A DNA stretch of 56,412 bases, from NCBI GenBank assembly GCA_903919615.1, contig CAIXIX010000563.1, positions 1 to 56,412 on the forward strand, given 5' to 3'. The stretch is from an uncultured Chthonomonas sp. Its GTDB lineage: Bacteria; Armatimonadota; Chthonomonadetes; Chthonomonadales; Chthonomonadaceae. Of this stretch, positions 24,905-56,334 are shown piece after piece (within the stretch, counting starts at the first letter, position 1; each line of letters opens with the position of its first letter). A model generated the notes under the pieces. It worked only from the letters and a program-made list of their open reading frames with translations, was not told the DNA's origin and did no database searches. The position numbers and the translations under genes were made by a program.

Positions 24905-26285
24905 GAGTAGCCCTCATAAGATAGATAGTCCGCTCGCTTTCCGGCACGGGCCGTTGAGCGACAATTTCAAAGTACTGCGAAAATGCTTTCTCAAATCCTG
25001 CCTGGGTATAGTCGGGGAAGATATCGGGCCGGCTCGTAAGCAGTCGCTGTACCTGCGAGTCGCTCTTTGGCACAAACTCAATAATCAGATTTCGCCCTAC
25101 TCTTGCCAATACCGATGCAACATCCGGTAATGGTACGTTGTTCCCGATTGCCAGATGATGGATCAAGGCGAGCGCCATTGCCGCGTCAACTGGCCCACGA
25201 TCGAAGAGAGACTTCCGCTCATTAAGACCCCAGCCAATGGCAGGGCTCGAGTTAGCGATATCGACTAGCAGCGGCAGAATACGCTTTTCTCCGCTATCTC
25301 GTGCATCAATATAGTTCTTCTCCACAGCAGCAGGATCGATATCCCAGCTAACCGTGTAAGACTTCGAGGCCGCGATTCGACTGAAGACGCCTGTGTTTGC
25401 GCCAAGATCCCAAACCATCCGGGGCGCTGGATCGATCTCTTCCAGCATTTGTCTCACGATTTCGTGTTTGGCATCCATTGCGGCGCTGGAGTAGTTTGTA
25501 TTGCCGTAATACTCTCCCCACTCCGTGCCAACCGGGCGCCAGGAGAGCGACTTCACGGTACCCATCAAGCTGTCGATGAGCCCGAGCAGCGCATTACGAC
25601 TGACTCCATATGCGGTGCTCTCATGGTGGACCTGTCTGTCTGCATATTTAGTCTGTGCCGAGCCGTGAAGATGGATATGCGACAGAAGCCCCGGTTTCAG
25701 CAGGGTCTTTCGTGGGAGCAGATGCGCGGCAAGATCGAGCGGTACACCATCTAAATGGATGCGAAGAAGCTGACTGAGCCGAATGTCTACGAGGCTCATC
25801 AGCGCAAGCGGTGCAAGAAAGTGACGACAGAACTGACCGTAGGCAATCCAGGGGTGGCCCTCTTCGTACTTTTCGAACGAAAGGGTGTCAATCAGAATCG
25901 GCTGCGCGCCACTAAACTGGATGTTGTACGCAGAGGCATCCTTGAGGGACATACCAGCTTCAATCGCATGTTGCTGGATGGTAAGCGTTGCAAGAGCCGC
26001 ATCCCTCAGTTGGCTAAAGCTCCACTCGTAAGGATACGAGATAAACTTAATAGGTTCAGGGATAACAACCTTGTAGGCGCCTTCGGTTAGCGCCAACTCT
26101 GCCGACTGCTCTGTGTGTGGTACGAGTAAGCGCTCGGCCACTAGCTTATTGTAAAGCCCAGAGCTGTTTAGTAGCTCGTAGTTCTCAGAATAAGACGGCT
26201 GGATCTGGCGATAAATAACGCCATCGCGACGGTAGACCCAGCCGTTCGGATCTCGAAAAGACCCGGATTCTCGCTGCGTTCCCAT
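24897..26285 (-). CDS. Class I SAM-dependent methyltransferase, large form
   Basis: 462 aa. The C-terminal half has the Rossmann-type SAM-binding motif VWDLGANTGVFSRIA (about 300-315), an acidic SDID-like residue in SWDIDP and later LALIHHL. The N-terminal 250 residues are a separate domain rich in kinase-like phrases ('LKDASAYNIQFSGAQPILID') seen in NoeA-like methyltransferases; its function is unknown. Start ATG 26285 shares its A with the TAA stop of the small membrane protein gene (TAATG), giving tight coupling. It is probably cytosolic and acts on a glycan or lipid intermediate with the downstream sulfatase-like enzyme; this is inferred from the operon. Confidence 0.86.
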   Translation of the reverse strand: MGTQRESGSFRDPNGWVYRRDGVIYRQIQPSYSENYELLNSSGLYNKLVAERLLVPHTEQSAELALTEGAYKVVIPEPIKFISYPYEWSFSQLRDAALATLTIQQHAIEAGMSLKDASAYNIQFSGAQPILIDTLSFEKYEEGHPWIAYGQFCRHFLAPLALMSLVDIRLSQLLRIHLDGVPLDLAAHLLPRKTLLKPGLLSHIHLHGSAQTKYADRQVHHESTAYGVSRNALLGLIDSLMGTVKSLSWRPVGTEWGEYYGNTNYSSAAMDAKHEIVRQMLEEIDPAPRMVWDLGANTGVFSRIAASKSYTVSWDIDPAAVEKNYIDARDSGEKRILPLLVDIANSSPAIGWGLNERKSLFDRGPVDAAMALALIHHLAIGNNVPLPDVASVLARVGRNLIIEFVPKSDSQVQRLLTSRPDIFPDYTQAGFEKAFSQYFEIVAQRPVPESERTIYLMRATHA

Positions 26286-26479
26286 TAGTGCCGATGCGCA
26301 GTGTGAAATTTGTTGACACCATTGCGAATTCGACGCCAGGCGAGTTTAAGCGAAAACGTCAAACCAAGCACACCAGCCATCACCATCTGAATAATGTAGC
26401 TGCCGCTTCCTCCGTCAATATGGGCATGAGCCGGCATGGTCACGAGAAGAAGTAAAGCAACGATCGCTATGTATTTCAT
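26285..26479 (-). CDS. Small membrane protein with IDGGSGSY motif
   Basis: 64 aa. A signal peptide (about 1-19, ending AHA), a short IDGGSGSYI motif at the mature N-terminus, one membrane helix (about 29-49) and a basic tail ending in His. AAAGG lies 10 nt before ATG 26479. It is the first gene of the operon with the methyltransferase and sulfatase-like enzyme (TAATG junction). Small proteins of this plan are known next to such gene pairs, but no function is established. The near-invariant small motif after the signal peptide suggests a binding role rather than a simple anchor. Confidence 0.75.
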   Translation of the reverse strand: MKYIAIVALLLLVTMPAHAHIDGGSGSYIIQMVMAGVLGLTFSLKLAWRRIRNGVNKFHTAHRH

Positions 26480-26764
26480 AACAAAGCACCTTTCTAAATG
26501 TCTTTCAATAATGATGACGAGGCTAAGCGAGCAGTGTTCTGCCTTTTTTATCGACTGTGAACTATTTAATATTTTTAATATTTAAGATTAGGGTCCTACA
26601 GAACCACGAAGACAAGAGGTGAATAGCTCAGTGTGTGCACTATGCGCAGCTGCAGCTTACAGAAAGCCTGAATTGGTAGTTGCTTTGCTTGCTGCGCAGT
26701 GTCCGGTTTCCACACAAGCGCGCCGCCGGAAGGGATGAGGTCCCTCCCGGCGGCACCGGACTAA
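26480..26764. other. Intergenic region with katG downstream hairpin
   Basis: 285 bp separating the katG stop codon from the small membrane protein gene. The left half is AT-rich and probably holds the promoter of the envelope operon. The right half holds the hairpin annotated separately. No ORF is supported. Confidence 0.45.
26722..26754 (-). terminator. Strong hairpin downstream of katG
   Basis: gccgccggaaggg (26722-26734) pairs with ccctcccggcggc (26742-26754), 13 bp with one G-T pair, around a 7-nt loop. An outer 6-bp pairing tccggt/accgga (26702-26707/26755-26760) extends it. It lies 10 bp beyond the katG stop. There is no U-tract, so it may act mainly as a 3'-end stabiliser. Confidence 0.55.
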
Positions 26765-32539: not shown

Positions 32540-32586
32540 ATTCCCCCGTTTTGCGGATGGCCAGAAGGCTCCAAAGCCGGTATACT
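32540..32586 (+). promoter_or_regulatory. korA promoter with conserved box
   Basis: The box ttcccccgttttgcggatgg (32541-32560, preceded by a matching A) is followed by 20 bp and then TATACT (32581-32586). The same box, spacer length and TATAAT occur before the nuo operon at 38755-38801. No TTGACA-like -35 is present 16-18 bp before the -10. The box is centred near -43 of the predicted start, a position used by class II activators. Confidence 0.65.
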
Positions 32587-32598
32587 TTGTTATCTATT

Positions 32599-32641
32599 AG
32601 CCCTGCGCCGAAACGAAGCCCCGTTGTTGACAGGGCTTTTT
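32599..32641 (+). terminator. Intrinsic terminator inside the korA leader
   Basis: agccctg (32599-32605) pairs with cagggct (32631-32637), followed by ttttt (32637-32641). The loop is 25 nt. It lies between the predicted korA start point and the korA ATG, only 32 nt from the latter, so transcripts reaching korA must pass it. It may also end the peptidase transcript. Confidence 0.65.
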
Positions 32642-32672
32642 CGCTGTGCGGGATGATCCGAAAGGGTTTGAT

Positions 32673-34469
32673 ATGGCTTTACAGACATCGGAATTGACGA
32701 CAGACGTAACGATACGACTGGTAGGTGAGTCTGGAGAGGGAACGATTAGCCTTGGCGAGTTGGCAGCAAAGATGCTCACCAAGCTTGGTCTTGAGATATG
32801 TACATTTCAAACTTTCCCGGCAGAGATCAAGGGTGGAACCGTTATGTTCCAGATCCGGGCTCGCGCAGGGGAAGTGCTTACCGAAGGCGACGCCGCGAAT
32901 ATACTTGTGGCGCTCACTGAAGATGGCTTTGTCTCGATGGGTGGAAATGTTGCTGGCGACGGGATTATTCTGTACGATTCCGATGTTTTCACGCCTCCAA
33001 CGGTGGAGGGTCGATGGCTGCTTGGCATGCCGATCTCTACCATGGGTAAGGTACTTAAGGATTCTCTGCGATCTGAGCTCGAAGGCGATCAGGTTGCACG
33101 CCTTCCAGCGCCAAAAAACATGATCGGTCTTGGCGCGCTGCTTACCCTCATTGATGCCCCACTGACCCCCGCGGAAGAGTACATTAAAGAGCTATTCGGC
33201 CGCAAAGGCGATGCAATCGTTCGCATGAATCAGCGCGCACTTAATGCTGGCGCCGATAAGGTGAAAGAGCAGCTTGAGGGTCGGACGATCCCGCACATCA
33301 CTGCTCAGGAGAGAACGGCCCCCATCGTTACGGTCAGCGGCAACCAGATGATTGCCATGGGCGCGCTTGCTGCGGGCCTCGGCTTCTTCGGCGGCTACCC
33401 AATTACGCCTGCCACAGAAATCATGGAGTTCCTTGCGAAGGAGCTTCCACGGTTTGGTGGAGACCTTATTCAGGCGGAAGATGAAATCGCCGCGCTTGCC
33501 ATGTGTATTGGCGCAAGCTACGCCGGCAAGAAAACGATGACGTCCAGCTCCGGCCCCGGCATCAGCCTGATGGTTGAACTTATTAACCTGGCTGGCCAGG
33601 CAGAGGTACCGGTTGTTATCGTAGATGTTCAGCGCGGCGGCGCCTCAACAGGCATGCCAACCAAGACTAGCCAGGGAGACCTGAATCTTGCCGTCTACGG
33701 CGTTCACAACGAATCCCCGCACATCGTATTTGCGGCCGCAAGCGTAGAAGACTGCTTCTGGGCAACCATCGAGGCGTTCAACCTGGCCGAGCAGTGCCAG
33801 TGCGCGGTTCTGCTGCTCTCCGAGCAGTCGCTCGCAACAAAGAAGGTTACAATCCCGCCACCGAATACGGCTGAGATTCGTATCGTGAATAGAAAGACCC
33901 CGACGGAAGATCAGTTGGGCGAAAGATATCATCGGTACGCCGATACTCTAACGGGCGTATCGCCGATGTCGTCACCAGGGCTGCCGGGCGGCGCGTATGT
34001 AGCTACCGGTATCGAGCACGATGAGCTAGGCAATCCGGGCTACACTCCCGAACTTGCACGCCAGATGAAGGACAAGCGCTTCCGCAAGCTCGACACGCTG
34101 GTTCGAGAGCAGGGCTCCCAGTATGCGCACCAGTTCGGCCCAGCAGAAGGCCCGCTGGACGTGGGCATCATCGCATTCGGCTCGACCGAGGGTGTTATTC
34201 GTGAGGCAACTGCGGCGGCAGCGGCAACCGGCCTAAAAGTCGGCCACTTGCACCTCCGCCTGTTAAACCCACTACCCATCGAGCAGGTCGAAGAGTTCGC
34301 TTCCCGATGCAAACAGATCCTTGTGCCGGAGCTCAACTATACCGGACAGCTGGCAGGCTGGCTGAGAAGCCAGGTTGGCCTCAAACTTCACACCTACCAC
34401 AAGGATGAAGGCGTCCCATTCGTCGCCAAGGAACTGATTGAAGAGATCAAATCCGTCGCCGCAAGGTGA
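32673..34469 (+). CDS. korA: 2-oxoacid:ferredoxin oxidoreductase, fused gamma-alpha subunit
   Basis: 598 aa from ATG 32673 (AAAGGG upstream; GTG 32646 would include it). An N-terminal gamma domain (about 10-185; VGESGEGTISLGELAAKML) is fused to the alpha, pyrimidine-binding domain (about 215-595; GGYPITPATEIMEFLAKE, SSSGPGISLM). With the beta subunit it oxidatively decarboxylates a 2-oxoacid, most likely 2-oxoglutarate, to the acyl-CoA and reduces ferredoxin. The fused gamma-alpha layout is that of bacterial KorA. Pyruvate or branched-chain oxoacids cannot be excluded by sequence alone. It is paired with korB 79 bp downstream. Confidence 0.93.
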   Translation: MALQTSELTTDVTIRLVGESGEGTISLGELAAKMLTKLGLEICTFQTFPAEIKGGTVMFQIRARAGEVLTEGDAANILVALTEDGFVSMGGNVAGDGIILYDSDVFTPPTVEGRWLLGMPISTMGKVLKDSLRSELEGDQVARLPAPKNMIGLGALLTLIDAPLTPAEEYIKELFGRKGDAIVRMNQRALNAGADKVKEQLEGRTIPHITAQERTAPIVTVSGNQMIAMGALAAGLGFFGGYPITPATEIMEFLAKELPRFGGDLIQAEDEIAALAMCIGASYAGKKTMTSSSGPGISLMVELINLAGQAEVPVVIVDVQRGGASTGMPTKTSQGDLNLAVYGVHNESPHIVFAAASVEDCFWATIEAFNLAEQCQCAVLLLSEQSLATKKVTIPPPNTAEIRIVNRKTPTEDQLGERYHRYADTLTGVSPMSSPGLPGGAYVATGIEHDELGNPGYTPELARQMKDKRFRKLDTLVREQGSQYAHQFGPAEGPLDVGIIAFGSTEGVIREATAAAAATGLKVGHLHLRLLNPLPIEQVEEFASRCKQILVPELNYTGQLAGWLRSQVGLKLHTYHKDEGVPFVAKELIEEIKSVAAR

Positions 34470-34548
34470 CCGATTGGTAAATGACGGACGCTGAACGACC
34501 GGCCTACTAATGACATTGGGGGCCCTAATACCTGAGGATGAAGACCTG

Positions 34549-35442
34549 ATGACGACTGCAACATTAACATACACACCAAAATCATATAAGAGTGACTTGA
34601 AGCCAATATGGTGCCCAGGCTGCGGCGACTTTGGCGTACTGAGCGCACTGTACAAAGCCATGGCGCAGTGCCAGCTAGATCCCAACAACACCGTTGTGGT
34701 CTCCGGCATTGGATGCTCATCCCGGCTTCCGGGCTTTGTATCCACGTATGGATTTCACAGCGTTCATGGCCGAGCCCTTCCGGTAGCGACCGGCATCAAA
34801 GCCTCGCGACCAGAGCTCAACGTAATCGTGGTTGGTGGAGACGGAGATGGCTACTCGATCGGTGGCGGGCACCTGCCGCATGCCGCTCGCCGAAACCTGA
34901 ACATGACCTACCTGATCATGAACAACAACACCTATGGTCTCACCAAGGGGCAGGTTTCACCAACATCTATGATTCCGCGAGCATCCTCGAACCCGAAGAT
35001 CGACCCTAAGCGCTGGCGTACAACTCCCTACGGGATGGTTGAAGATCATCTCGATCCTCTCGCCCTCGCCGTTGCAGCAGACTGCTCGTTTGTAGCGCGC
35101 GGCTTCTCGTACAAGCCGAACGTTCTTGCCGACATTCTGGTTCAGGCAATCTCGCACAAGGGATTCTCCTTGATCGATGCGTTTTCGCCCTGCCCGACAA
35201 TGAATCAGGATCAGACGGACGACTACTACAAAAACATGACCTTCGACATTCCTGCCGATCACGATCCAAGCAACAAGACCGCTGCATTCGCGCTGGCGAC
35301 ACATCCAACCGGCTACCCGATCGGCGTGATCTACAAGCATGTGAACAAGCCAAGCATGCAGGACGAAGAAGCCTCCATTCGTGGCCGCTTCACAAACGAC
35401 CTTACTGCAACAATCGACAGCCTGTTCAGACGCTACCTGTAG
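34549..35442 (+). CDS. korB: 2-oxoacid:ferredoxin oxidoreductase, beta subunit
   Basis: 297 aa from ATG 34549 (GAGGA 10 nt upstream); ATG 34510 lacks a site. It binds thiamine diphosphate (GGDGDGYSIGGGH ... NNNTYGLTKGQ) and one 4Fe-4S cluster through WCPGC, a Cys in GIGCSSR and a later Cys in SPCPT. It forms the active site with KorA and passes electrons to ferredoxin. A perfect intrinsic terminator follows 12 bp after the stop, so korAB form a closed two-gene unit. Confidence 0.94.
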   Translation: MTTATLTYTPKSYKSDLKPIWCPGCGDFGVLSALYKAMAQCQLDPNNTVVVSGIGCSSRLPGFVSTYGFHSVHGRALPVATGIKASRPELNVIVVGGDGDGYSIGGGHLPHAARRNLNMTYLIMNNNTYGLTKGQVSPTSMIPRASSNPKIDPKRWRTTPYGMVEDHLDPLALAVAADCSFVARGFSYKPNVLADILVQAISHKGFSLIDAFSPCPTMNQDQTDDYYKNMTFDIPADHDPSNKTAAFALATHPTGYPIGVIYKHVNKPSMQDEEASIRGRFTNDLTATIDSLFRRYL

Positions 35443-36200: not shown

Positions 36201-36518
36201 GTGAAATTACACGGGATCAATCTTGAACCATACGTGCTAGTGGAGTTCTGCCACAGATGGAGTATCAGCGATCTGCGCGTCTTCGGCTCTATACTGCGAG
36301 ACGATTTTGACGCGGAAAGCGATGTCGACTTTCTTGCTGATTTTGATGATACGATAGAGCGAGACGCTTTTGACCACATGGAGATGGAAGACGAACTCGC
36401 TTCAATCGTCGGGCGTAAAGTGGACCTAGTCAGCCGGTCAGCGATCGAAGCCAGCGGAAACCGCTTCTATTTGAAAGAAATATTCGCGACAGCGGAGCCG
36501 GTCCTTGCGCAGCGATGA
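36201..36518 (+). CDS. mntA: MntA-type nucleotidyltransferase antitoxin
   Basis: 105 aa. Minimal nucleotidyltransferase fold with the motif VFGSILRDDFDAESDVDFLADF in shortened form: GS-x-R-x-DF ... SDVDF, the two Asp residues binding metal. In MntA/HepT pairs this protein transfers AMP groups to a Tyr on the HEPN toxin and silences it. The GTG start at 36201 is preceded by AGGAGG. The gene overlaps hepT by 14 bp. It sits in the accessory region between korAB and the nuo operon. Confidence 0.9.
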   Translation: MKLHGINLEPYVLVEFCHRWSISDLRVFGSILRDDFDAESDVDFLADFDDTIERDAFDHMEMEDELASIVGRKVDLVSRSAIEASGNRFYLKEIFATAEPVLAQR

Positions 36519-36849
36519 CGCTTACGTCGAGGATATCAGACTTGCTACTGTGCGAATCGCCCAATACATTGAAGGGATGAGCCGCACAGAATTCGTTGTC
36601 GACGAGAAGACTCGCGCGGCGGTTGAGCGTGAAATGACGATCATCGGCGAAGCCTCAGGTAAGGTATCAGCGGCGTTCAAGTCTGAACATGCCAATTTTC
36701 CGTGGCAGCAACTCGTGAGGCTGCGTAACTTTTATGTACATGCGTATGAACGCCTGAGCCCGACAGAAGTTTGGGGGACCGCCTTTAAGCTGGCCCCGCG
36801 AGTCGGGCGGCTGGTAGCGGCGCTAACTGACGAAGACACCACCGAATAG
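36505..36849 (+). CDS. hepT: HepT-type HEPN ribonuclease toxin
   Basis: 114 aa, DUF86/HEPN family. The RNase motif R-x4-H-x-Y is visible as RNFYVHAY, where the Arg and His are catalytic and the Tyr is the usual AMP acceptor. The start is TTG 36505 within the mntA end, matching the family's N-terminus (SDDAYVEDIRLA). As the toxin it would cleave RNA when not modified by MntA. The overlap means the two are made together. Confidence 0.9.
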   Translation: MRSDDAYVEDIRLATVRIAQYIEGMSRTEFVVDEKTRAAVEREMTIIGEASGKVSAAFKSEHANFPWQQLVRLRNFYVHAYERLSPTEVWGTAFKLAPRVGRLVAALTDEDTTE

Positions 36850-38754: not shown

Positions 38755-38801
38755 ATTCCCCCATTTTGCGGATGGAGGAGGCGGATGCCTCTGGCTATAA
38801 T
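38755..38801 (+). promoter_or_regulatory. nuo operon promoter with conserved box
   Basis: The box ttcccccattttgcggatgg (38756-38775, preceded by A) is followed by exactly 20 bp and then TATAAT (38796-38801). It differs from the korA copy at one of 21 positions. The predicted start near 38808 leaves a 21-nt leader before ATG 38829. Confidence 0.7.
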
Positions 38802-38828: not shown

Positions 38829-39854
38829 ATGGACCTTCGAACAGATTATCTTGGGCTGGATCTGAAGAACCCCATCGTTGCAGCAGCATCTCCACTCTCC
38901 TACTCCCTTGATGGAATCAAGAGGCTGGAAGATGCTGGTGCAGCTGCAATCGTGCTGTTTTCCGTCTTCGAAGAGCAGATATCGAATGGCGAAGGGCAGG
39001 TTAACCTCTACCTCGATCTGCAGGGCAATGCTGCTAGCGACAACCGGCTTGCATATCCCAAGGCTTCCGAGTATCGCGTAACCCCCGAAGGTTATCTAGA
39101 ACACATAGCGAAGGCCAGACAGGCCGCAGGCATCCCAATTATCGCCAGCATCAACGGTGTATCTGCCGGTGAGTGGCTTAATTTTGCCAAATCAATTGAG
39201 CAGGCTGGAGCCGCCGCGATCGAACTCAACCTTTACTATGTGCCAACCGATATTGAACTGACCAGCCTAACAACCGAGTGGATGTATCTGGATGCGGTCG
39301 CAGAAGTTGCCGCGATGGTGAACATCCCGCTTGCAGTAAAGGTCAGCCCATTCTTTAGCGCGATGCCCTGGATGTTGAACAAACTTGCCGGCGCAGGCGC
39401 GAACGGCCTTGTTCTCTTTAACCGGTTCTATCAGCCGGAGCTCGACATTGAGGCGCTAGAGGCAAAGCCTGGCATACAACTTAGCCGGTCCGAGGACCTA
39501 GCGCTTCCAATTAGATGGGTTTCTCTACTACACGGCCGCATCCCGGCCGATTTTGCCGTTACAGGGGGTGTTCACACCTACCGCGACGTCATTAAATCGG
39601 TTATGGCGGGCGCCAATGTGGTAATGATGGCTGCAGAGCTGCTGCAGAACGGTGTTGAGCGCATTGGAGAGATACTCAGCGAAATCGCTCCGTGGATGGA
39701 AGCGCACGAGTTCGGCTCTATCGATTCGATGCGAGGCTTCATGAGTGAGCGTTTCGCCATTGCGCCAGAGATTTTCGAACGTGGCAGCTACGCGAGAGCG
39801 CTGGTTTCCTACGCAGACGCACAGCGACGTGCGGCATTGAATATCACAGACTAG
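38829..39854 (+). CDS. Dihydroorotate dehydrogenase-like flavoprotein
   Basis: 341 aa from ATG 38829 (GAGG upstream, just after the promoter). A TIM-barrel FMN enzyme related to PyrD: LKNPIVAAASPLS at the start, IIASINGVSAGEW, LAVKVSPFF and a C-terminal phosphate-binding TGGVHTYRDV ... MAGANVVMM. This subfamily is often found beside ferredoxin-dependent oxidoreductases and need not act on dihydroorotate. It is 17 bp upstream of nuoA in the same direction, so it heads the complex I operon. A role in pyrimidine synthesis or as a flavin electron entry point are both possible; context favours neither firmly. Confidence 0.87.
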   Translation: MDLRTDYLGLDLKNPIVAAASPLSYSLDGIKRLEDAGAAAIVLFSVFEEQISNGEGQVNLYLDLQGNAASDNRLAYPKASEYRVTPEGYLEHIAKARQAAGIPIIASINGVSAGEWLNFAKSIEQAGAAAIELNLYYVPTDIELTSLTTEWMYLDAVAEVAAMVNIPLAVKVSPFFSAMPWMLNKLAGAGANGLVLFNRFYQPELDIEALEAKPGIQLSRSEDLALPIRWVSLLHGRIPADFAVTGGVHTYRDVIKSVMAGANVVMMAAELLQNGVERIGEILSEIAPWMEAHEFGSIDSMRGFMSERFAIAPEIFERGSYARALVSYADAQRRAALNITD

Positions 39855-39871: not shown

Positions 39872-40246
39872 TTGCACAACTTGGCTCCATCAGGAACGCA
39901 ATACCTTGCCGTCGTGGTTTTCACACTGGTTGGCATCGCGTTTGTAGCGGGAACCCTGATCTTTTCAAGACTGATCCAGCCCCATGCGCCGAACGCAGCG
40001 AAAACGTCCACCTATGAGTGCGGCGTTCTTCCGGTCGGCCGCGCATGGCAACAGTTTAATCCGCACTACTATCTCTTCGCTCTGCTTTTCGTGGTTTTCG
40101 ATGTTGAAGCCGCCTTTCTCTTCCCCTGGGCGCTCGCTTACAAGGCTGTCGGCGCCTATGCTGTGGCTGAAATGATCATCTTTGTTGCGCTGCTCGGCGT
40201 CGGGCTGGCGTATGCATGGCGCCGAGGGGCGCTGGAATGGGAATAA
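39872..40246 (+). CDS. nuoA: NADH-quinone oxidoreductase subunit A-like
   Basis: 124 aa with three membrane helices (about 10-33, 65-88, 93-115). The family signature [15 protein letters not shown] ... [21 protein letters not shown] is intact. It forms part of the quinone-channel end of complex I. The start is TTG 39872 (GAGAG upstream). Its end overlaps nuoB by 10 bp. Confidence 0.92.
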
Positions 40247-40836
40247 CGTTGGACAAGCCGCTTACTCAAAAAGAGGTCGATACCTGGCGCGTGCCTATTC
40301 CTGGTGGCGCAGTCCTTCTTGCTCCTGCGGATCGGCTCGCACAATGGGCCCGTAAAAACTCGCTCTGGTCGCTAACCTTCGGGTTGAGCTGCTGTGCTAT
40401 CGAGATGATGGCAGCCGGTGCGGCGCGAAACGACCTGGATCGCTTCGGAATGTTCTTCAGAGCGACCCCGAGGCAAGCGGACGTAATGATCGTTGCAGGA
40501 TGGGTATCCGTAAAGATGGCGCCCTTCATCAAAACCCTCTACGATCAGATGCCAGAGCCAAAATATGTGATCGCCATGGGCGGGTGCGCCTCTGCAGGCG
40601 GCCCGTACCGCGACAGCATTACGGTGGTAAAAGGCGCGGACCAGTTCATACCGGTGGATGTTTATGTGTATGGCTGTCCTCCTCGTCCAGAGAATCTCAT
40701 TAACGGCATCATAAAGCTGCAGGAGGTTGTGATGTCTGAACATGCGATGACAAGACGCGGACAACCGCTGCCAAAGCGAACACCAATCGTCATCACAGAC
40801 TTCGGAGATGCATCGTCTGTGGGCGAGCAGTCCTGA
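40237..40836 (+). CDS. nuoB: Complex I subunit B (N2 cluster)
   Basis: 199 aa from ATG 40237 (GAGGGG about 7 nt upstream). It carries the last 4Fe-4S cluster N2: tandem Cys in LSCCAIE, then GGCASAGG and YGCPPRP. This cluster passes electrons to quinone. It overlaps the nuoA stop codon. Confidence 0.95.
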
Positions 40837-40850
40837 CACAGGTTAAAAGA

Positions 40851-41336
40851 ATGACCCCTGACGAGATCAAAGCAAAGTTCGAGGGCAGCGTCCTCAGTGT
40901 GGAAGAGGTGAAGGGTGACCTTCATCTTACTGCCGCTGCCGAGGGATTCGACGAACTCTGCACCTTTCTGCGGGACGATCCCGAATGCCTGTTCGATTAC
41001 CCTGGCGATCTCACCGGCCGCGACACCGGCAAAGAGATCCTGCTCTGGTATCGGCTCTATTCGATGAAGCGCAACCAGACAGCACTAATTATCGTTTCAC
41101 TTCCGCTCGAGTCGCCAGAAATCCAGTCGGTGACCGCCATCTGGCCGGGCCTTAACTGGTTTGAACGTGAATGCTACGACATGTACGGAGTGCATTTCAC
41201 GGGTCACCCGGACCAGGGATCGCCCGAAACGATGCGTATTCTTCTGCCGGAAGACTGGGAGGGCCATCCCTTCCGCAAAGATTACAAGCCTGTATTCAGC
41301 GGTAATCCGCTGCATGGCCCACAAGAGACCAACTGA
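40851..41336 (+). CDS. nuoC: Complex I subunit C
   Basis: 161 aa, a peripheral-arm subunit that contacts NuoD. Family signature: WFERECYDMYGVHFTGHPD followed by RILLPEDWEGHPFRKDY. It is separate from nuoD, as in most bacteria outside Enterobacteria. Starts 15 bp after nuoB. Confidence 0.95.
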   Translation: MTPDEIKAKFEGSVLSVEEVKGDLHLTAAAEGFDELCTFLRDDPECLFDYPGDLTGRDTGKEILLWYRLYSMKRNQTALIIVSLPLESPEIQSVTAIWPGLNWFERECYDMYGVHFTGHPDQGSPETMRILLPEDWEGHPFRKDYKPVFSGNPLHGPQETN

Positions 41337-41404: not shown

Positions 41405-42514
41405 ATGGTGAGTACAGCAGCAGAGCCTACGACAGTTACGGTGAACCTTGGACCGCAGCACCCATCAACTCACGGTGTGTTGCGAATCCTGGTTGAACTG
41501 GATGGTGAGATTGTCGTTAGCTGTCGCCCTGTCATTGGCTACCTGCATCGAGGCCTCGAGAAGATGCTCGAGTCGCGCAGCTACAAACAGACCGTTCCAT
41601 TCACCGATCGAATGGACTACTGCGCTGCGCTCAATGGCAATCTCGCGATCTCGCAGGCGATTGAGCGCGTTGGCGGCCTCGAGCCGCCGGAGCGAGCCCA
41701 GTACCTCCGCGTCCTGCTATGCGAGCTAAACCGGATCGCCAGCCATCTCCTCTTCGTTGGCACGTTTGCGATGGATATCGGCGCAACCACAGCCTTCCTT
41801 TACGCCTTTAGAGAGAGAGAGAAAGCTCTCGACCTCTTTGAAACAATGACTGGCGCAAGGCTCACGTACAACTACATTCGCCCGGGCGGCATTCCTGCAG
41901 ACATGCCCGATGGCTTCTCTGGCGCGCTGCTGCAATTTCTCGATGAGCTGCAGATTGCCCTGGATGAGAACGATCGCCTCGTTACAAACAACAGGATCTT
42001 TGTGGATAGGCTTGTCGGTGTCGGAGTGCTGACGCCGGAGATGGCGATCGCATACGGCGCATCTGGCCCTGTGGCCCGCGGCTCGGGGCTGAACTTCGAT
42101 ATTCGCCGCTGCGCTCCCTACGAGGTCTACGACCGCCTGGATTTTGACGTGGCAGTGTTTGATGGCTGCGACTGCTATGCGCGGTACTTAGTGAGGATCG
42201 AGGAGATGCGTCAGAGCGCAAAGATCATCAAACAGTGCCTGCGCGATATGCCTGAGGGCGAAATCATGACGAAGATGCCCAAGATTTTTAAACCCGCAGC
42301 CGGCTCGGCCTATTCCCGCACAGAGTCGCCGAGAGGTGAGCTCTCTTTCTATGTGGTGAGCGACGGAACACCGAACCCGGCGCGCATGCATGGCAGAACG
42401 CCCTCGTTCGTACATCTTAGCCTTCTGCCTGCCATGCTGCCCGGAACAAAGATTGCCGATGTTATCGCCATTCTCGGCAGTCTCGACACAGTCCTTGGAG
42501 AGGTGGATCGATGA
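41405..42514 (+). CDS. nuoD: Complex I subunit D (quinone-binding)
   Basis: 369 aa, a 49-kDa-type subunit that lines the quinone pocket. Visible are NLGPQHPSTHGVLRI, GYLHRGLEKM with the quinone-contacting His, and GCDCYARYLVRIEEM; its hydrogenase ancestry is seen in layout but the NiFe Cys ligands are absent, as usual for NuoD. The gap to nuoC is 68 bp without a visible terminator. Confidence 0.95.
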   Translation: MVSTAAEPTTVTVNLGPQHPSTHGVLRILVELDGEIVVSCRPVIGYLHRGLEKMLESRSYKQTVPFTDRMDYCAALNGNLAISQAIERVGGLEPPERAQYLRVLLCELNRIASHLLFVGTFAMDIGATTAFLYAFREREKALDLFETMTGARLTYNYIRPGGIPADMPDGFSGALLQFLDELQIALDENDRLVTNNRIFVDRLVGVGVLTPEMAIAYGASGPVARGSGLNFDIRRCAPYEVYDRLDFDVAVFDGCDCYARYLVRIEEMRQSAKIIKQCLRDMPEGEIMTKMPKIFKPAAGSAYSRTESPRGELSFYVVSDGTPNPARMHGRTPSFVHLSLLPAMLPGTKIADVIAILGSLDTVLGEVDR

Positions 42515-43623
42515 CCGCCAACACGCTGAGACAGACAAAAACGATCCAGGCTGGCCAGATCGTATCCGGCACCGTGATAACCTTCGTGATCATTGGCGCC
42601 ATCACTCTGCTGGCACACCTGCCCTGGGGCTGGACCAAGCCTGTCACCAGTTTCATTGCAAACTATCCACTGCTCAATGCCTTCGTAAGCGCATTCATTG
42701 TCGCAAACGTGGTAGCGCTGCAGTGCCTTGTGCTGATCTGGATAGAGCGAAAATTCGCTGGCTGGATGCAGGCCCGCGTTGGACCAATGCACGTTGGGTG
42801 GAAGGGCACATTACAAACAGTGGCCGATGCGGTTAAGCTTCTGCTGAAAGAGGACATTGTTCCTGCGGATGCAGATGTACCCATGTTTGCGCTGGCGCCC
42901 TATCTTGTATTCATACCGTCGCTGCTTACCTTCATGGTTTTGCCATTCACCTCCGCGTGGGTCGGGTTCGATTACAGCCTCGGCGCGCTCTTTGTTCTCA
43001 GCATCTCGGCGCTCTCAATCCTCGGAGTGTTTGCAGCAGGATGGGGCAGCAACAATAAGTATTCGCTTCTTGGTGGTATGCGAGCCGTCGCGCAGTTGCT
43101 CTCCTACGACATCCCACTTATCCTCAGTGTACTGTCTGTGGTGATGCTGTCCGGAACGCTCTCACTGACAAAGATTGTGGAGCAGCAATCGAGCGGCTGG
43201 AATATCGTACGGCACCCGTTTCTGATGATCCCGGCGTTTGTCATGTTTATTATATGCACGCTCGCCGAAGTCAATCGAACACCCTTCGACCTTCCAGAAG
43301 CGGAGTCGGAGCTTGTTAGCGGTTTCCATACCGAATACTCGGGCATGCGGTTCGCCTTCTTCTTCCTTGCCGAATTCGCAAACAACTTCTTCTCGGGCGG
43401 GCTCGCAGCAACGCTCTTCTTTGGCGGCTGGCTTGGCGCCGGGCTTCCTGCAGCGCTCTGGTTTACGCTGAAGACGCTGCTGGTTATCTGCCTGATGATG
43501 TGGATACGATGGACACTGCCACGGCTTCGCGTAGACCAGATGATGAGCTTCTGCTGGAAGATACTGGTGCCGGCCGGAATGGCGCTGATCTGCGCCACAG
43601 CGCTGGCTACGGTAGGGCATTGA
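42511..43623 (+). CDS. nuoH: Complex I subunit H
   Basis: 370 aa with eight or more membrane helices. Conserved acidic-arginine region: WIERKFAGWMQARVGPMHVG and EVNRTPFDLPEAESELVSGFHTEY (shortened), which connects the quinone site to the proton channels. Its ATGA overlaps nuoD. The usual genes E, F and G are absent between D and H. Confidence 0.95.
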   Translation: MTANTLRQTKTIQAGQIVSGTVITFVIIGAITLLAHLPWGWTKPVTSFIANYPLLNAFVSAFIVANVVALQCLVLIWIERKFAGWMQARVGPMHVGWKGTLQTVADAVKLLLKEDIVPADADVPMFALAPYLVFIPSLLTFMVLPFTSAWVGFDYSLGALFVLSISALSILGVFAAGWGSNNKYSLLGGMRAVAQLLSYDIPLILSVLSVVMLSGTLSLTKIVEQQSSGWNIVRHPFLMIPAFVMFIICTLAEVNRTPFDLPEAESELVSGFHTEYSGMRFAFFFLAEFANNFFSGGLAATLFFGGWLGAGLPAALWFTLKTLLVICLMMWIRWTLPRLRVDQMMSFCWKILVPAGMALICATALATVGH

Positions 43624-43790: not shown

Positions 43791-44372
43791 ATGAACTCGC
43801 TCCGCGATGGGATATCGGGCTTCACCAGCTTTCTTAAGGGAATGTCAGTTACCCTTAGCAACCTGGTTCGCCGCGAAAAGATCACCGTACTCTATCCGTA
43901 TGAGAAGGTTGACGTCGCTCCGCGCTATCGCGGGCTCTTTGTTCTTCCGTTTAACGAGGAGAACCACCGGCTGAACTGTACCGGATGCACTCTCTGCATT
44001 CAGGCCTGCCCTACTGGCGTCATCACGCTAACGAAACATGGCGCTGGCAAGCACGGCGGCATCTCAGACTTTCAAATGGATCTGGGACGCTGCATGTTCT
44101 GCAACCTCTGCATCGAGGCATGCCCGTTCGAAGCGATTGAAATGACGACCGCCTTTGAACTCGCTGGCACCGATAGAAACACATGCGTTTTTCCGCTAAC
44201 GGCGCTGGCACAGGGCGGTGCGGCTTCCGTGCAGACGAATATGGAGACGATTACCAACGCGCTCGCCGCCGAAGCTGCTGCCAAAGAGGCTGCAGCAAAG
44301 GCGAAAGGCGAGGCAGCGGCACTGGCTGCTCACGCGCCAAAGCCCGCGCCACCAGGGGGAACTGCAGAATGA
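43791..44372 (+). CDS. nuoI: Complex I subunit I (two 4Fe-4S clusters)
   Basis: 193 aa. Two CxxCxxCxxxCP motifs (CTGCTLCIQACP and CMFCNLCIEACP) bind clusters N6a and N6b. The C-terminal 45 residues are an Ala/Lys/Pro-rich tail not needed for cluster binding and longer than in most NuoI. In enzymes lacking NuoEFG this subunit is the likely docking site for ferredoxin; that is inferred. Its stop overlaps nuoJ (ATGA). Confidence 0.95.
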   Translation: MNSLRDGISGFTSFLKGMSVTLSNLVRREKITVLYPYEKVDVAPRYRGLFVLPFNEENHRLNCTGCTLCIQACPTGVITLTKHGAGKHGGISDFQMDLGRCMFCNLCIEACPFEAIEMTTAFELAGTDRNTCVFPLTALAQGGAASVQTNMETITNALAAEAAAKEAAAKAKGEAAALAAHAPKPAPPGGTAE

Positions 44373-44932
44373 ACCAGGCTGCAAGTATGATTGCGTTCTA
44401 TAGCCTTGCCGCACTAACGCTCATTCCCGCGCTCTTCGTGGTGAATTCGCGCAGCATCGTGCACGCAGGCTTCTGGCTGCTTCCCTGTTTTCTTGGAGTC
44501 GCAGGTCTATATGCCGCGCTCGAGGCGCACTTCTTCTTCGTGACGCAGCTTATGATCTATGCGGGCGCAATTATGGTGCTTATCCTCTTTGCGCTGATGC
44601 TCACCAGAAATGCAATGGATCCTTCCGCTCCACAGCATAACAAATTTAGACCGGTGGCTGGACTGATCTGCGGAGCATTCGGACTGCTGGCATCCTGGGC
44701 GCTTACCCAGCATGCCTGGCAGATTACCGACCAGAGCCCACAGAGCGCAGTTGAGCAGACTACCGCTCTCGGCAATGCTCTAATCGGCATGTACGCCGTG
44801 CCTTTTGAGGTCGCTTCCCTTCTGCTACTGGCCGCCCTTATTGGCGCCATCGTGCTTGCTAAGGTAGAACGGGGTCCTGCTCCGGAAACGGCGCCACTCG
44901 CCGACCTTGAAGCAATTCACACGCTCGAATAG
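44369..44932 (+). CDS. nuoJ: Complex I subunit J
   Basis: 187 aa from ATG 44369; the longer open frame back to 44183 lies in another frame of nuoI and is spurious. Five membrane helices, with the family's QLMIYAGAIMVLILFALML stretch in helix 3. Overlaps nuoI by 4 bp. Confidence 0.93.
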   Translation: MNQAASMIAFYSLAALTLIPALFVVNSRSIVHAGFWLLPCFLGVAGLYAALEAHFFFVTQLMIYAGAIMVLILFALMLTRNAMDPSAPQHNKFRPVAGLICGAFGLLASWALTQHAWQITDQSPQSAVEQTTALGNALIGMYAVPFEVASLLLLAALIGAIVLAKVERGPAPETAPLADLEAIHTLE

Positions 44933-44954: not shown

Positions 44955-45260
44955 ATGGGGCTTACAAACTATCTAATCGTTAGCGCGCTGCTATTCGCAA
45001 TTGGAACTTACGGCGTCATCACACGGCGCAATGCGATTGCCGTGCTGATGGGCATTGAGTTGATGTTGAATGCCGCAAATATTAACTTTCTGGCCTTCTG
45101 GCGTTTCCTGCATCCCGCTTCCATGGAGCCGCAAGTCTTCGTACTGGTTGGCCTCACCGTAGCGGCAGCAGATGCAGCGATTGGCCTCGCTGTCGTGCTG
45201 AACCTGTATCGCGAATTTGGCGCCGTTGAAGTCGATCGCGCCGACACATTGAAAGGATAG
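44955..45260 (+). CDS. nuoK: Complex I subunit K
   Basis: 101 aa, three membrane helices with the conserved glutamate in MGIELMLNAANINF and a second Glu-free VGLTVAAADAAIGLAVV helix. It is part of the proton pathway. It lies 22 bp after nuoJ. Confidence 0.94.
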   Translation: MGLTNYLIVSALLFAIGTYGVITRRNAIAVLMGIELMLNAANINFLAFWRFLHPASMEPQVFVLVGLTVAAADAAIGLAVVLNLYREFGAVEVDRADTLKG

Positions 45261-45265
45261 GGCCC

Positions 45266-47191
45266 GTGGCAGCATTTTCCGCTTTACCGCTCTGGCTCCT
45301 ACCACTGGCGCCGTTTATTGCAGCCGCCCTGTGCGCGGTGATCGCTCTCTCGGGCAACAAGAGCGCCGCGAAGGCCGCGCCTGCGCTGACACTTGTCGCG
45401 ACCATTGTCTCAGCGCTGATTGCGCTTGCTCATGTACCTGGTGAAGGGCACATTGCAAGCCAGAGTTACGAATGGCTTACCATCGGAACCGGGCTTAAGA
45501 TTACTCTGAGCGTTCATCTCGACGCGCTCGCCTGGACCATGGTTGCGGTTGTTTGCCTGGTTAGCACTCTCGTGCAGATCTACTCAACCGCTTATATGAA
45601 GGGTGAGGCCGGGTTCGCACGCTACTACGCCTGCCTCGCGATGTTCACCTGCTCGATGCTCGCACTGGTGCTTGCAGATAACCTCTTTCAGCTCTACATC
45701 TCCTGGGAACTGGTCGGGATCTGTTCCTATCTGCTGATCGGCTTCTGGTGGACGAAGAAATCAGCCGGAGACGCGTCAAAGAAAGCATTTATCGTCACAC
45801 GATTTGGCGATGTCGGCTTTTTTCTTGGCGTGCTCTTAATGGTCTCCGCTGCAGGATCGTTCCAGTTCACGGAAGTGGCGCATGCGGTCACCCAGATATC
45901 CAGCGGGCAGCTAACTTCGCTGCCGCTGTTGGGCCCGCAACTTTTCCTTATAATTGCACCTCTACTCCTTTTCTGCGGCGCCGTTGGCAAATCCGCCCAA
46001 TTCCCGCTCCATATCTGGCTGCCAGATGCGATGGAGGGTCCCACCCCGGTATCGGCGCTTATCCATGCTGCGACGATGGTTGCCGCCGGCGTCTACATGG
46101 TGGCGCGCCTACTTCCCGTATTTGCCGCGAGCCAGGTTGTGATGAACATTATCATCATTACCGGATCGATCACCGCGCTAATAGCAGCAACAATCGCTCT
46201 GGTACAGACCGACATTAAGAAAGTAATGGCCTACTCCACGATCAGCCAGTTAGGCTATATGTTCATCGGTCTCGGTGTTGGCAGCCGCGATGCGGGCATG
46301 TTCCACCTCGTAACGCACGCGATGTTTAAAGCGCTCCTCTTCCTGACAGCCGGCTCCGTTATTCATGCGCTGCACCACTCCGCAACGCCGAATGATATGC
46401 GGCTTATGGGTGGCCTTTCAAAGAAGATGCGCGTCACTTCGATCACCTGTGGCATCGGAGTTCTGGCACTTGCCGGTTTGCCGGGTCTTAGCGGGTTCTG
46501 GAGCAAAGAGGCGATCCTCGGCGCCGCACTAGAGAACCACAGTCCGGTCGCGATGCTCGGATTGGCCGTTGCGCTGCTTGTTGCCGCCATGACCGCTTTC
46601 TACAGCACACGAATGTGGTTGATGACCTTCTACGGCACATCGAGATCGCATGAAGCGGAGCACGCACATGAGGGCCCGGCAAGCATGACGGTGCCGCTGA
46701 TGATCCTGGCAGCCCTATCCGTTGGATTAGGGTTCTGGCTTAAGTCCGGCGGCAGGTTGTCAGCCTTCCTCGGCGGTGGAGTGGAATCCGCCCCTGAGCA
46801 CATGACACTCTGGCTCACCGCTGTTGCGAGCCTCTGCGCACTGGGAGGCATCGGAGTAGCGTGGAGCATCTACGGAAAGCAGTCGCTGGCTGCGGACCCT
46901 ATCGAGAAAATTCCTGGCTACAAACTCTTCGTAAACCTGTGGTACATCGACGACTTCTGGAGCAAAGGGGCAGCCGCGGGAGCCCTCGCATTTGGCCGCT
47001 TCGTCGCATGGTTCGACCGAACGGTTATTGATGGCCTTATAAACGTAATCGGGGGCGCCTGCCAGCTCGTAGGCAATCGCCTGCGGAAATCGGCTACGGG
47101 CCAGACGCAGCTCTATACCACGGTAGTAATGGCTGGACTTGTAATCGCAGTTCTTGCGATCTCTTATTTGCAGCAGGTCGGAGGACGGTAA
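45266..47191 (+). CDS. nuoL: Complex I proton-pumping subunit L
   Basis: 641 aa, about 16 helices, GTG start 5 bp after nuoK. The antiporter-like core shows SWELVGICSYLLIGFWW, LPDAMEGPTPVSALIHAATMV and KKVMAYSTISQLGYM; the C-terminal part supplies the lateral helix. Confidence 0.95.
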   Translation: MAAFSALPLWLLPLAPFIAAALCAVIALSGNKSAAKAAPALTLVATIVSALIALAHVPGEGHIASQSYEWLTIGTGLKITLSVHLDALAWTMVAVVCLVSTLVQIYSTAYMKGEAGFARYYACLAMFTCSMLALVLADNLFQLYISWELVGICSYLLIGFWWTKKSAGDASKKAFIVTRFGDVGFFLGVLLMVSAAGSFQFTEVAHAVTQISSGQLTSLPLLGPQLFLIIAPLLLFCGAVGKSAQFPLHIWLPDAMEGPTPVSALIHAATMVAAGVYMVARLLPVFAASQVVMNIIIITGSITALIAATIALVQTDIKKVMAYSTISQLGYMFIGLGVGSRDAGMFHLVTHAMFKALLFLTAGSVIHALHHSATPNDMRLMGGLSKKMRVTSITCGIGVLALAGLPGLSGFWSKEAILGAALENHSPVAMLGLAVALLVAAMTAFYSTRMWLMTFYGTSRSHEAEHAHEGPASMTVPLMILAALSVGLGFWLKSGGRLSAFLGGGVESAPEHMTLWLTAVASLCALGGIGVAWSIYGKQSLAADPIEKIPGYKLFVNLWYIDDFWSKGAAAGALAFGRFVAWFDRTVIDGLINVIGGACQLVGNRLRKSATGQTQLYTTVVMAGLVIAVLAISYLQQVGGR

Positions 47192-47197
47192 CACAAG

Positions 47198-48745
47198 ATG
47201 GATGGATGGCTGCTCTCAATTACAATCCTGGCGCCGATGATCGCTGGCGTGCTCCTGCTGACGCTTCCGGCCACAAAAGGCCTGCTGATTCGCTTCGTAG
47301 CACTCATTGGCGCGGTTATCACGCTGCCGGTAGCGATCTACCTATGCATCAACTACAACCGATCCACTGGCGGTTACCAGTTTGTTCAGGACATCCCCTG
47401 GGTCCCATCCCTGGGTATACACTACCATCTCGCAGCCGATGGCATCAGCGTCGTACTGATTCTGCTGACAGCACTGCTTATAACTGGCGGTGTGTTCGCA
47501 TCATGGACGCGTAAGGACCGAACCAAAGAGTTTCTTGCGCTGCTGCTGCTGCTTGTAAGCGGAGTGTTCGGTGTGTTCGCTTGCCGCGATCTCTTCTTCC
47601 TGTTCCTGTTCTACGAGATTGCAGTGCTTCCGATGTATCTGCTTATTGGAGTGTGGGGAACGAGCACAAAGGCGCGCACCAAAGAGTACAGCGCCATGAA
47701 GCTCACGCTGATGCTGATGGGCGGCAGCGCGTTTATCCTTGTCGCTATTCTGGCCATGTATACACAGAGCGGGCAGCGAACGTTCGATATGGATACACTC
47801 TCCCGAGTGGGCTTCGATCCTGCCATGCAGCGCTGGGTGTTTATCGCCGTCTATGTCGGATTTGGCATCCTCGCAGGTATCTGGCCGCTGCACACCTGGT
47901 CTCCTGATGGTCACGCATCAGCTCCCACTGCAGTCTCGATGCTTCATGCAGGCGTGCTGATGAAGCTGGGAGCCTACGGCGTCCTTCGCCTTGGCCTACA
48001 GATGCTGCCGCAGGGCGCACAGGACTGGTCGTTTCTGATGGCGGTCATCGCCACGATCAACATCCTGTACGGCGCATGCAGCGCCATGGGCCAGACAGAC
48101 CTGAAGTACATCATCGCCTACTCGAGTGTGAGCCACATGGGTATGGTGATGCTTGGACTGGCATCATTGAATGCGGTTGGCATTAACGGTTCTGTGATGC
48201 AGATGGTCTCTCATGGGATTATGACCGGCCTCTTCTTCGCCGTTGTCGGCCTAATCTATGAGAAGTCGCACACCCGCATCATCGCGAATATGGGCGGTTT
48301 TGCGAAGCGAATGCCCGGCGTTGCCGTGTGTATGACAATTGGCGGTCTCGCCTCATTCGGGCTTCCCGCCACAAGCGGTTTTATCGCTGAGTTTCTCTGC
48401 TTCTACGGAATGTGGCTGCGCTATCCAATACTCGCGCTACTTGCCGTTCTTGGCATCGTTGTCACGGCGGTCTATGTGCTCCGGATGATCCAGAAGATTT
48501 TTCTTGGGGAGTACAACGAGAAGGAGTACCACGACCTTCCCGATGCTCGAACGACAGAGTGGGTGGCGATTACTGCGCTTTCGGCCGCACTCCTGCTTCT
48601 CGGAATGTATCCTAAGCCCATCGTGAACCTCATCGAAGTGGGATGGCGCACTACCCGGGCGGATGCCGTAGAATCGGCGTCAGTCCACCCCAATCATAAC
48701 AACACGGCGAGAGTTCTGCCCGCCGGCATGAGGCTTCTTCCATGA
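47198..48745 (+). CDS. nuoM: Complex I proton-pumping subunit M
   Basis: 515 aa, about 14 helices. FYEIAVLPMYLLIGVWG and HTWSPDGHASAPTAVSMLHAG and KYIIAYSSVSHMGMV are all present, including the key Glu and Lys residues. It starts 6 bp after nuoL and its end overlaps nuoN by 4 bp. Confidence 0.95.
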   Translation: MDGWLLSITILAPMIAGVLLLTLPATKGLLIRFVALIGAVITLPVAIYLCINYNRSTGGYQFVQDIPWVPSLGIHYHLAADGISVVLILLTALLITGGVFASWTRKDRTKEFLALLLLLVSGVFGVFACRDLFFLFLFYEIAVLPMYLLIGVWGTSTKARTKEYSAMKLTLMLMGGSAFILVAILAMYTQSGQRTFDMDTLSRVGFDPAMQRWVFIAVYVGFGILAGIWPLHTWSPDGHASAPTAVSMLHAGVLMKLGAYGVLRLGLQMLPQGAQDWSFLMAVIATINILYGACSAMGQTDLKYIIAYSSVSHMGMVMLGLASLNAVGINGSVMQMVSHGIMTGLFFAVVGLIYEKSHTRIIANMGGFAKRMPGVAVCMTIGGLASFGLPATSGFIAEFLCFYGMWLRYPILALLAVLGIVVTAVYVLRMIQKIFLGEYNEKEYHDLPDARTTEWVAITALSAALLLLGMYPKPIVNLIEVGWRTTRADAVESASVHPNHNNTARVLPAGMRLLP

Positions 48746-50208
48746 TGGACTATACGCCGATCTATCCCTACATCCTGCTTGTGGCTGCCTCGCTGTCCAT
48801 TGCTCTGCTCGGCACGGTTCCTTCCGTTCGCAGCGGAAGATGGCTTGGCTGGCTGACGGCCGCGTCGGCGCTAGCGGCTCTGGCGCTGAGCAGCCATACC
48901 GGCAACTCATCGCCGTGGGGCGGGACTTTACGCTTCGATGGATACGCTCGCGCATTTAACGGCATCTTTCTGTTGATTTTAGCGGTCATCGCGATCGGCT
49001 CGGTTGCAGAAGAAAAAAAGACCGCATTTGCGGGCGAATACTATGCTCTGATGCTGTTGAGCACGATGGGTCTAATGATCATGGGTAGCTCCGGCAGCCT
49101 GCTGATACTCTATGTGGGGCTGGAGCTCTCGACGATCTCACTCATCGCGCTGGCCGCGTTCTCGAAGTTCGAGAAGCGCTCCGCGGAGGCATCCGTTAAG
49201 CTGCTGGTTCTGGGCTCGGTCGCTTCGGCAATCGTGCTGTATGGATCGAGCATTCTCTACGGCGTGCTCGGAACCACTACTTTTACCGGAATGTCTCAAG
49301 CGCTTGCGACGGGAACGCTGGCTGCGCCTGCAGCAGCCCTGTGGCTCGGAATTATCTTCGTGATTGGCGGCCTTGCCTTTAAAGTAGCAGCCGTCCCCTT
49401 TCACCTCTGGGCGCCGGATGTGTATGAAGGCGCGCCCGCTCTCGTAACTGCGTTCCTCTCGACGGCATCAAAGGCGGGCGGATTTGCGGCGCTGCTCCGC
49501 TTCCTGATCTCCATTCAGGCTGGAGAGAACCATGCGATTACCTCATTAATCGTTGCGATATCCGGGTTATCCATGCTGATCGGCAACCTGTGCGCTCTGT
49601 CTCAAACGAATCTGAAGCGGTTGCTGGGATATTCGGGTATCGCGCAATCCGGATACATCCTCGTCGCTGTTGCAGGTGGCGTTGGGCCAGACCATGGAGC
49701 CATCGTCGGTTCTACGCTGATGTACCTGTTGCTCTATGCCTTCACAAATGTAGGAGCCTTCCTGCTGGTGCAAGCGGTGTACGATGCCACTGGCTCGGAC
49801 AAGGTGAGCGCTCTGAGCGGGCTGCACAAACGCTGTCCAACGCTGGCCTTCAGCGCAGTTGTTGTTATGTTCTCGCTGGGAGGCATTCCACCACTCGCAG
49901 GTTTTGTTGGAAAGCTGTACCTGTTCGCGGCGGCGTGGGAGGGTGGTCAGCAGGGGCTGGTTATGCTCGGCGCAATCGCCAGCGTCATCGCCCTCTACTA
50001 CTATCTGATGGTTGTGAAGCAGATCTACATCCACGATCCGGCCGACGATCGACGGATCGCGGTTGCCAGACCACTTGGCATCGCGATGACGATCTGCACC
50101 ATCGCGATACTCGCAATCGGAATCTATCCCCGGCCAGTTATTGAAATCGGAGAAAGGGCCACAGCATCCATGACAGCAGTATCGGGTACGATCACCGCAC
50201 GGCGGTAA
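48742..50208 (+). CDS. nuoN: Complex I proton-pumping subunit N
   Basis: 488 aa, about 14 helices with LYVGLELSTISLIALAAF, HLWAPDVYEGAPALVTAFL and KRLLGYSGIAQSGY. It is the last gene of the operon; no U-tract terminator follows directly. The operon therefore encodes A, B, C, D, H, I, J, K, L, M and N only. Confidence 0.95.
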   Translation: MMDYTPIYPYILLVAASLSIALLGTVPSVRSGRWLGWLTAASALAALALSSHTGNSSPWGGTLRFDGYARAFNGIFLLILAVIAIGSVAEEKKTAFAGEYYALMLLSTMGLMIMGSSGSLLILYVGLELSTISLIALAAFSKFEKRSAEASVKLLVLGSVASAIVLYGSSILYGVLGTTTFTGMSQALATGTLAAPAAALWLGIIFVIGGLAFKVAAVPFHLWAPDVYEGAPALVTAFLSTASKAGGFAALLRFLISIQAGENHAITSLIVAISGLSMLIGNLCALSQTNLKRLLGYSGIAQSGYILVAVAGGVGPDHGAIVGSTLMYLLLYAFTNVGAFLLVQAVYDATGSDKVSALSGLHKRCPTLAFSAVVVMFSLGGIPPLAGFVGKLYLFAAAWEGGQQGLVMLGAIASVIALYYYLMVVKQIYIHDPADDRRIAVARPLGIAMTICTIAILAIGIYPRPVIEIGERATASMTAVSGTITARR

Positions 50209-56035: not shown

Positions 56036-56334
56036 TCAGGTGTTCTCCTCTACTCAACTGTTCAAAGTTATTACCAACGGTTATAGCCGAGAGTTCCCGA
56101 TGTCGGCAGAACCGGCGCAACGCAACGTATACTTTGAGAAATGCCATATAGGCTGCGACCCATAGTTGCCTCAAGAGACAGATTCGGCCATTCGGTGGAT
56201 GCATCTTTTTCGCTCGCGTTCCATAGTATTTATGCTTAGGAAGTCGTAATTTAAGTCTATCAGCAAATATTGACATCAGGAGCAATCTTTGGTGTTTACT
56301 ACGATAAAATAGGATGATGATCAAGGGGGAACGG
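56036..56334. other. Divergent intergenic region
   Basis: About 300 bp between the leftward hydrolase and the rightward CoA-transferase-like gene. A TTGACA at 56270-56275 is visible, but no -10 lies at a good distance, so I call no promoter with confidence. Confidence 0.4.

Follow-up and report, generated by a model that had tools for sequence, protein, structure and literature searches.

Two promoters in the window, as we call the whole 56,412-nucleotide stretch of DNA that was analysed, carried nearly identical operator boxes in place of a -35 element. One promoter precedes the genes for a 2-oxoacid:ferredoxin oxidoreductase (KOR) and the other precedes an operon for a complex I without NuoEFG. 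The boxes are probably operators for a DosR-type regulator with a haem-GAF sensor, which would induce both enzymes. The first-pass annotation, made from the sequence of the window, had reported the two boxes with an exact 20-bp spacing to TATACT and TATAAT, and this description was confirmed. It had also attributed them to an undescribed regulator, for which a response regulator recognisably of the DosR/NarL type, paired with a sensor like DosS/DosT, now appears the more likely candidate.

Table 1. Coordinates of the operator boxes, -10 elements and genes discussed in the text (window positions unless a contig of the same genome, G000, is given)
Feature	Position	Strand	Remarks
Operator box 1, TTCCCCCGTTTTGCGGATGG	32541..32560	+	kor promoter; in place of -35 element; sequence read directly
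-10 element TATACT	32581..32586	+	exactly 20 bp past box 1 (spacer 32561-32580)
korA, 2-oxoacid:ferredoxin oxidoreductase alpha subunit	32673..34469	+	TIGR03710 above cut-off
korB, 2-oxoacid:ferredoxin oxidoreductase beta subunit	34510..35442	+	TIGR02177 above cut-off
Operator box 2, TTCCCCCATTTTGCGGATGG	38756..38775	+	DHOD/nuo promoter; sequence read directly
-10 element TATAAT	38796..38801	+	exactly 20 bp past box 2 (spacer 38776-38795)
Dihydroorotate-dehydrogenase-like gene (DHOD, PRK07565)	38829..39854	+	heads nuo transcription unit; ATG 28 bp past -10
nuoA	39872..40246	+	
nuoB	40216..40836	+	
nuoC	40851..41336	+	
nuoD	41405..42514	+	
nuoH	42511..43623	+	
nuoI	43791..44372	+	two 4Fe-4S
nuoJ	44183..44932	+	ORF as listed; real start probably more 3'
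nuoK	44955..45260	+	
nuoL	45266..47191	+	
nuoM	47198..48745	+	Proton_antipo_M; cluster order
nuoN	48742..50208	+	
Response regulator, DosR-like, NarL/FixJ family	G000:C36, about 24354-25031	minus	directly after sensor kinase gene
Sensor kinase	G000:C36, about 25084-26730		PAS, GAF, HisKA_3 and ATPase domains

The two boxes, with the A that precedes each, were identical at 20 of 21 positions, and the spacers that follow them had only 2 of 20 bases in common, as unrelated as had been claimed. Both boxes were centred near -43, which supports the earlier proposal of a shared activator site at the position of the -35 element. A search of the window that allowed up to three mismatches gave two matches compared to 0.02 expected, and no shuffle reached two. 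Rather than being scattered at random, the box had no other match at this tolerance in the whole 7.42-Mb genome. When the window was scored with a matrix from whose training the kor and nuo sites had been left out, box 2 ranked first and box 1 second with the -10 element included (scores of 29.3 and 25.8), and the best of 200 shuffles (21.5) fell below both. The boxes still ranked first and second when the -10 element was omitted, with scores of 19.2 and 17.9; the best shuffle (21.5) then outscored both, which makes the box by itself less decisive evidence. The motif is short, and a likeness by chance might be considered on that account; it is barely conceivable, given that the only two matches in the genome both lie at a fixed distance before a -10 element of functionally linked operons, that the box is conserved in a relative of the same genus, and that no shuffle equalled the scores obtained with the -10 element.

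Three further observations concern the window itself. The third-best site, ATTCGGCCATTCGGTGGATG at 56180-56203, was a weak operator-like sequence with no good -10 element. In the korA leader, a strong hairpin with a U run after it (32612-32645; fold z, -2.9) resembles a terminator and is possibly an attenuator; no such hairpin and U run was seen when the korA leader of the same-genus genome was inspected by eye. An Rfam search for an RNA element gave no match.

Conservation within the genus was apparent in a second genome (G001, L007; contig CAIONQ010000028.1), in which AATCCCCCATTCTGCGGATGA-N20-TATAAT was found upstream of korA. The box, the 20-bp spacing and the -10 element were all kept compared to the korA promoter of the window, whereas the spacer was unrelated, as expected of a protein-binding site. 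In this relative korAB adjoins the DHOD-nuo genes, and both the second box and a 3.3-kb insert that separates korB from DHOD/nuo in the window are absent. That insert holds a pair of genes with Nucleotidyltransferase (PF01909) and HepT-like (PF01934) domains (36201-36849), likely a toxin-antitoxin module. The arrangement in the relative, with one box only, might suggest that the window boxes are recent duplicates of a single promoter that share no control, as might the unusual left arm TTCCCCC common to the two copies 6.2 kb apart. Such an origin is very improbable, since matching flanks would be expected of a recent duplicate and the two spacers do not match despite their exact spacing, and since the same-genus korA promoter retains box, spacing and -10 element around yet another spacer. 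No box was found in the korA upstream regions that were scanned in other genera, for some of which the gene starts are approximate; a box at korA was found in this genus only.

The first-pass annotation had described the box at the kor and nuo operons; that its regulator serves these two operons alone was not supported. Boxes 1 and 2 are variants, with the weakened left arm TTCCCCC instead of AATCCGCC, of the palindrome AATCCGCC-AWTT-N-GCGGATG, which in related Armatimonadota families recurs at a distance of 19-20 bp from a downstream TAYAAT. With one mismatch allowed, the relaxed pattern TCCGCC-N5-GCGGATG-N21-TANNNT had 27 matches in 31 genomes of the order compared to 4 for the reversed pattern. 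The exact pattern had 15 matches in 291 genomes of the phylum, 14 of them in families f1 and f3, compared to 2 for the reversed control. In the aligned sites the left arm was preceded by AA (20 of 22 sites at each position) and the centre was AT-rich. Neither feature was part of the search pattern, and their recurrence therefore indicates that the operator is the full palindrome. Recognition by an alternative sigma factor was considered and rejected, because the left arm would lie too far upstream for contact with sigma and the -10 element appears to be of the housekeeping type.

The genes downstream of these sites encode Usp and BON proteins, P-type ATPases, cytochrome b/c, zinc alcohol dehydrogenase and HypD. 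Additional targets include Hsp20, nitroreductase, hemerythrin with XFP phosphoketolase, cytochrome bd, HypC, a phosphoribosyltransferase and a beta-CASP hydrolase. Compared by content, this set much resembles the DosR regulon of mycobacteria and the OsdR regulon of Streptomyces. A weak box-like site was also noted about 100 bp before an NAD-linked nickel-hydrogenase cluster (G000:C595; L275, near 2989). The half-site spacing and position of the operator are also those of a 5-N6-5 palindrome bound at a class II position, like the TGTGA-N6-TCACA sites of the CRP/FNR family. It is hardly credible that a regulator of that family is responsible, because no HTH_Crp_2 match (E ≤ 1e-5) was found in the genome of the window despite its approximately 20 matches to the operator profile, and a genome with 17 profile matches (G011) had only two weak partial HTH_Crp_2 matches in long ORFs.

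A candidate regulator lies within one group of the targets. On contig C36 of the same genome, an island with four boxes contains genes for a sensor, a response regulator, a beta-CASP protein, two Usp proteins and a BON protein. The NarL-type response regulator of this island is likely the protein that acts at the operator. It consists of REC and GerE (NarL helix-turn-helix) domains and aligned to DevR (3c3w) with an E value of 7e-32, and NarL and VraR scored higher. The GAF domain of the adjacent sensor had DosT (2vzw) as its best match (E, 5.9e-36), and DosS was also among the closest. At the sequence level, the equivalents of the DosS haem ligand H149 and pocket tyrosine Y171 were both conserved. 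The proximal histidine of DosT is H147. In DosS, His149 is the proximal haem ligand (PMC4082495). The kinase has one PAS and one GAF domain in place of the tandem GAF pair of DosS. Of the 291 Armatimonadota genomes, 30 had an orthologue of the regulator (E ≤ 1e-60); they belong to families f1, f3, f7, f15 and f24. The genome of the window also has a paralogue with 61% identity (G000:C209:56402-57025; L242), which adjoins prepilin-like genes and is followed by a box-like palindrome, AAAATCTGCCAATTGGCAGACGAA.

Co-occurrence makes the predicted pairing of regulator and operator a strong one. A box with a -10 element was found within 350 bp past the regulator stop codon at 7 of 15 loci in the order compared to 5 of 107 other genes (P = 5.5e-5). 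Outside the order the corresponding figures were 8 of 15 loci and 1 of 94 control genes (P = 1.4e-7); the box matrix was trained within the order only, and these loci were never in training. Among the 31 genomes of the order, sites at E < 1e-3 were present in 9 of the 15 with the regulator, leaving 6 with no site at this threshold, and in 1 of the 16 without it (P = 0.002), a comparison in which the training sites of the profile came partly from genomes that were later counted, which makes the loci outside the order the cleaner test. It is unlikely, but not far-fetched, that the operator is real and shared and that some other dimeric regulator binds it, the DosR-like pair being merely one of its targets. 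The adjacency of box and regulator may reflect control of neighbouring island genes instead of a cognate pair, other response regulators are numerous in these genomes, and the paralogue on C209 could bind the operator instead. Against this, the adjacency recurs in several families, including those outside the training order, the presence of sites tracks the presence of the regulator, and the targets match known DosR/OsdR regulons.

The assignment of the operons was upheld on the korA side, where korA and korB matched the OAFO and PorB_KorB models, both above cut-off; the promoter on the other side was found to serve a unit that starts with the DHOD-like gene rather than with nuoA. The complex I of the window comprises 11 subunits, nuoABCDHIJKLMN, and a scan of the ORFs between 38766 and 50208 gave no match to nuoE, nuoF or nuoG. 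Contig C438 of the same genome (L278) bears another, separate nuo cluster, in which NuoA, D, E, F and G are present, and no operator box was present in the region upstream of that cluster. Because the box precedes KOR and the NuoEFG-less complex and is missing before the C438 cluster, the operator marks KOR and the complex without the NADH module. The ferredoxin link proposed in the first-pass annotation was thus borne out as far as the shared box is concerned, and the role of ferredoxin as electron donor to the window complex may be suggested from the gene content.

These results suggest the following sequence of events. As oxygen falls, or when NO or CO binds, the sensor would most likely autophosphorylate and then phosphorylate the regulator. 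A dimer of the regulator would bind the palindrome centred near -43 and could contact RNA polymerase where a promoter lacks a -35 element but has a good -10 element (TAYAAT) 19-20 bp farther on. In this genus KOR and the complex I without NADH-oxidising subunits would be induced, with ferredoxin possibly carrying the electrons between them when oxygen is scarce. With little more than even confidence, we lean towards the broader view that several Armatimonadota families possess a DosR-like regulon for oxygen sensing that has an operator code of its own, and that in one genus this regulon has captured KOR and a second complex I devoid of the NADH module; a haem sensor would thereby switch the respiratory chain to ferredoxin instead of NADH when oxygen is low. 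A search of the literature, outside which most subscription journals lay, gave no description of such a system in Armatimonadota. A little-studied and largely uncultured phylum thereby gains a defined regulon, with an operator, a likely regulator, a likely sensor and a list of targets. The findings also suggest that dormancy control of the DosR type extends far outside Actinobacteria, where it uses another DNA code, and that the choice between complex I with and without the NADH module is tied to an oxygen-type sensor.

As judged from its predicted components, the DosR-like control described here is a new branch of a known regulator type and not an unknown kind. It shares with DosR/DevR-DosS/DosT of Mycobacterium tuberculosis a NarL-type response regulator, a haem-type GAF domain with the His149 and Tyr171 equivalents, a partner kinase that by its sequence is of the HisKA_3 type, and a regulon with Usp, Hsp20, nitroreductase and metabolic hypoxia genes. 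In both systems a palindromic operator overlaps the -35 region; the box of Armatimonadota ends 19-20 bp before the -10 element, and DevR sites likewise overlap -35 (PMC3029386). Besides the weakened left arm of the window boxes and the restriction of the korA box to this genus, a point against a DosR-type regulator is that the operator is unlike the DosR/OsdR consensus sites, with AATCCGCC-N5-GCGGATG in Armatimonadota and a palindrome of the GGGAC/GGGCC type for DosR. The kinases also differ, with one PAS and one GAF domain in the kinase of this genome compared to two GAF domains in DosS, and the targets in this other phylum include KOR, the 11-subunit complex I, cytochrome bd and phosphoketolase. 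OsdKR of Streptomyces coelicolor (PMC5069765) is similar in that a DosR-like pair lies among its own targets, in an island that has numerous operators, and in that Usp, zinc alcohol dehydrogenase and nitroreductase are among those targets; it differs in the 16-nt OsdR consensus, AGGGCCGATCGGCCCT, and in phylum. The complex I-like enzyme of Desulfitobacterium hafniense (PMC11238625) has the same 11 subunits, nuoABCDHIJKLMN without nuoEFG, and ferredoxin is likewise a candidate donor. Unlike that enzyme, the complex of the window is preceded by a DHOD-like gene, has a predicted DosR-like operator, and belongs to a genome in which another nuo cluster, with NuoEFG, lies at a separate site.
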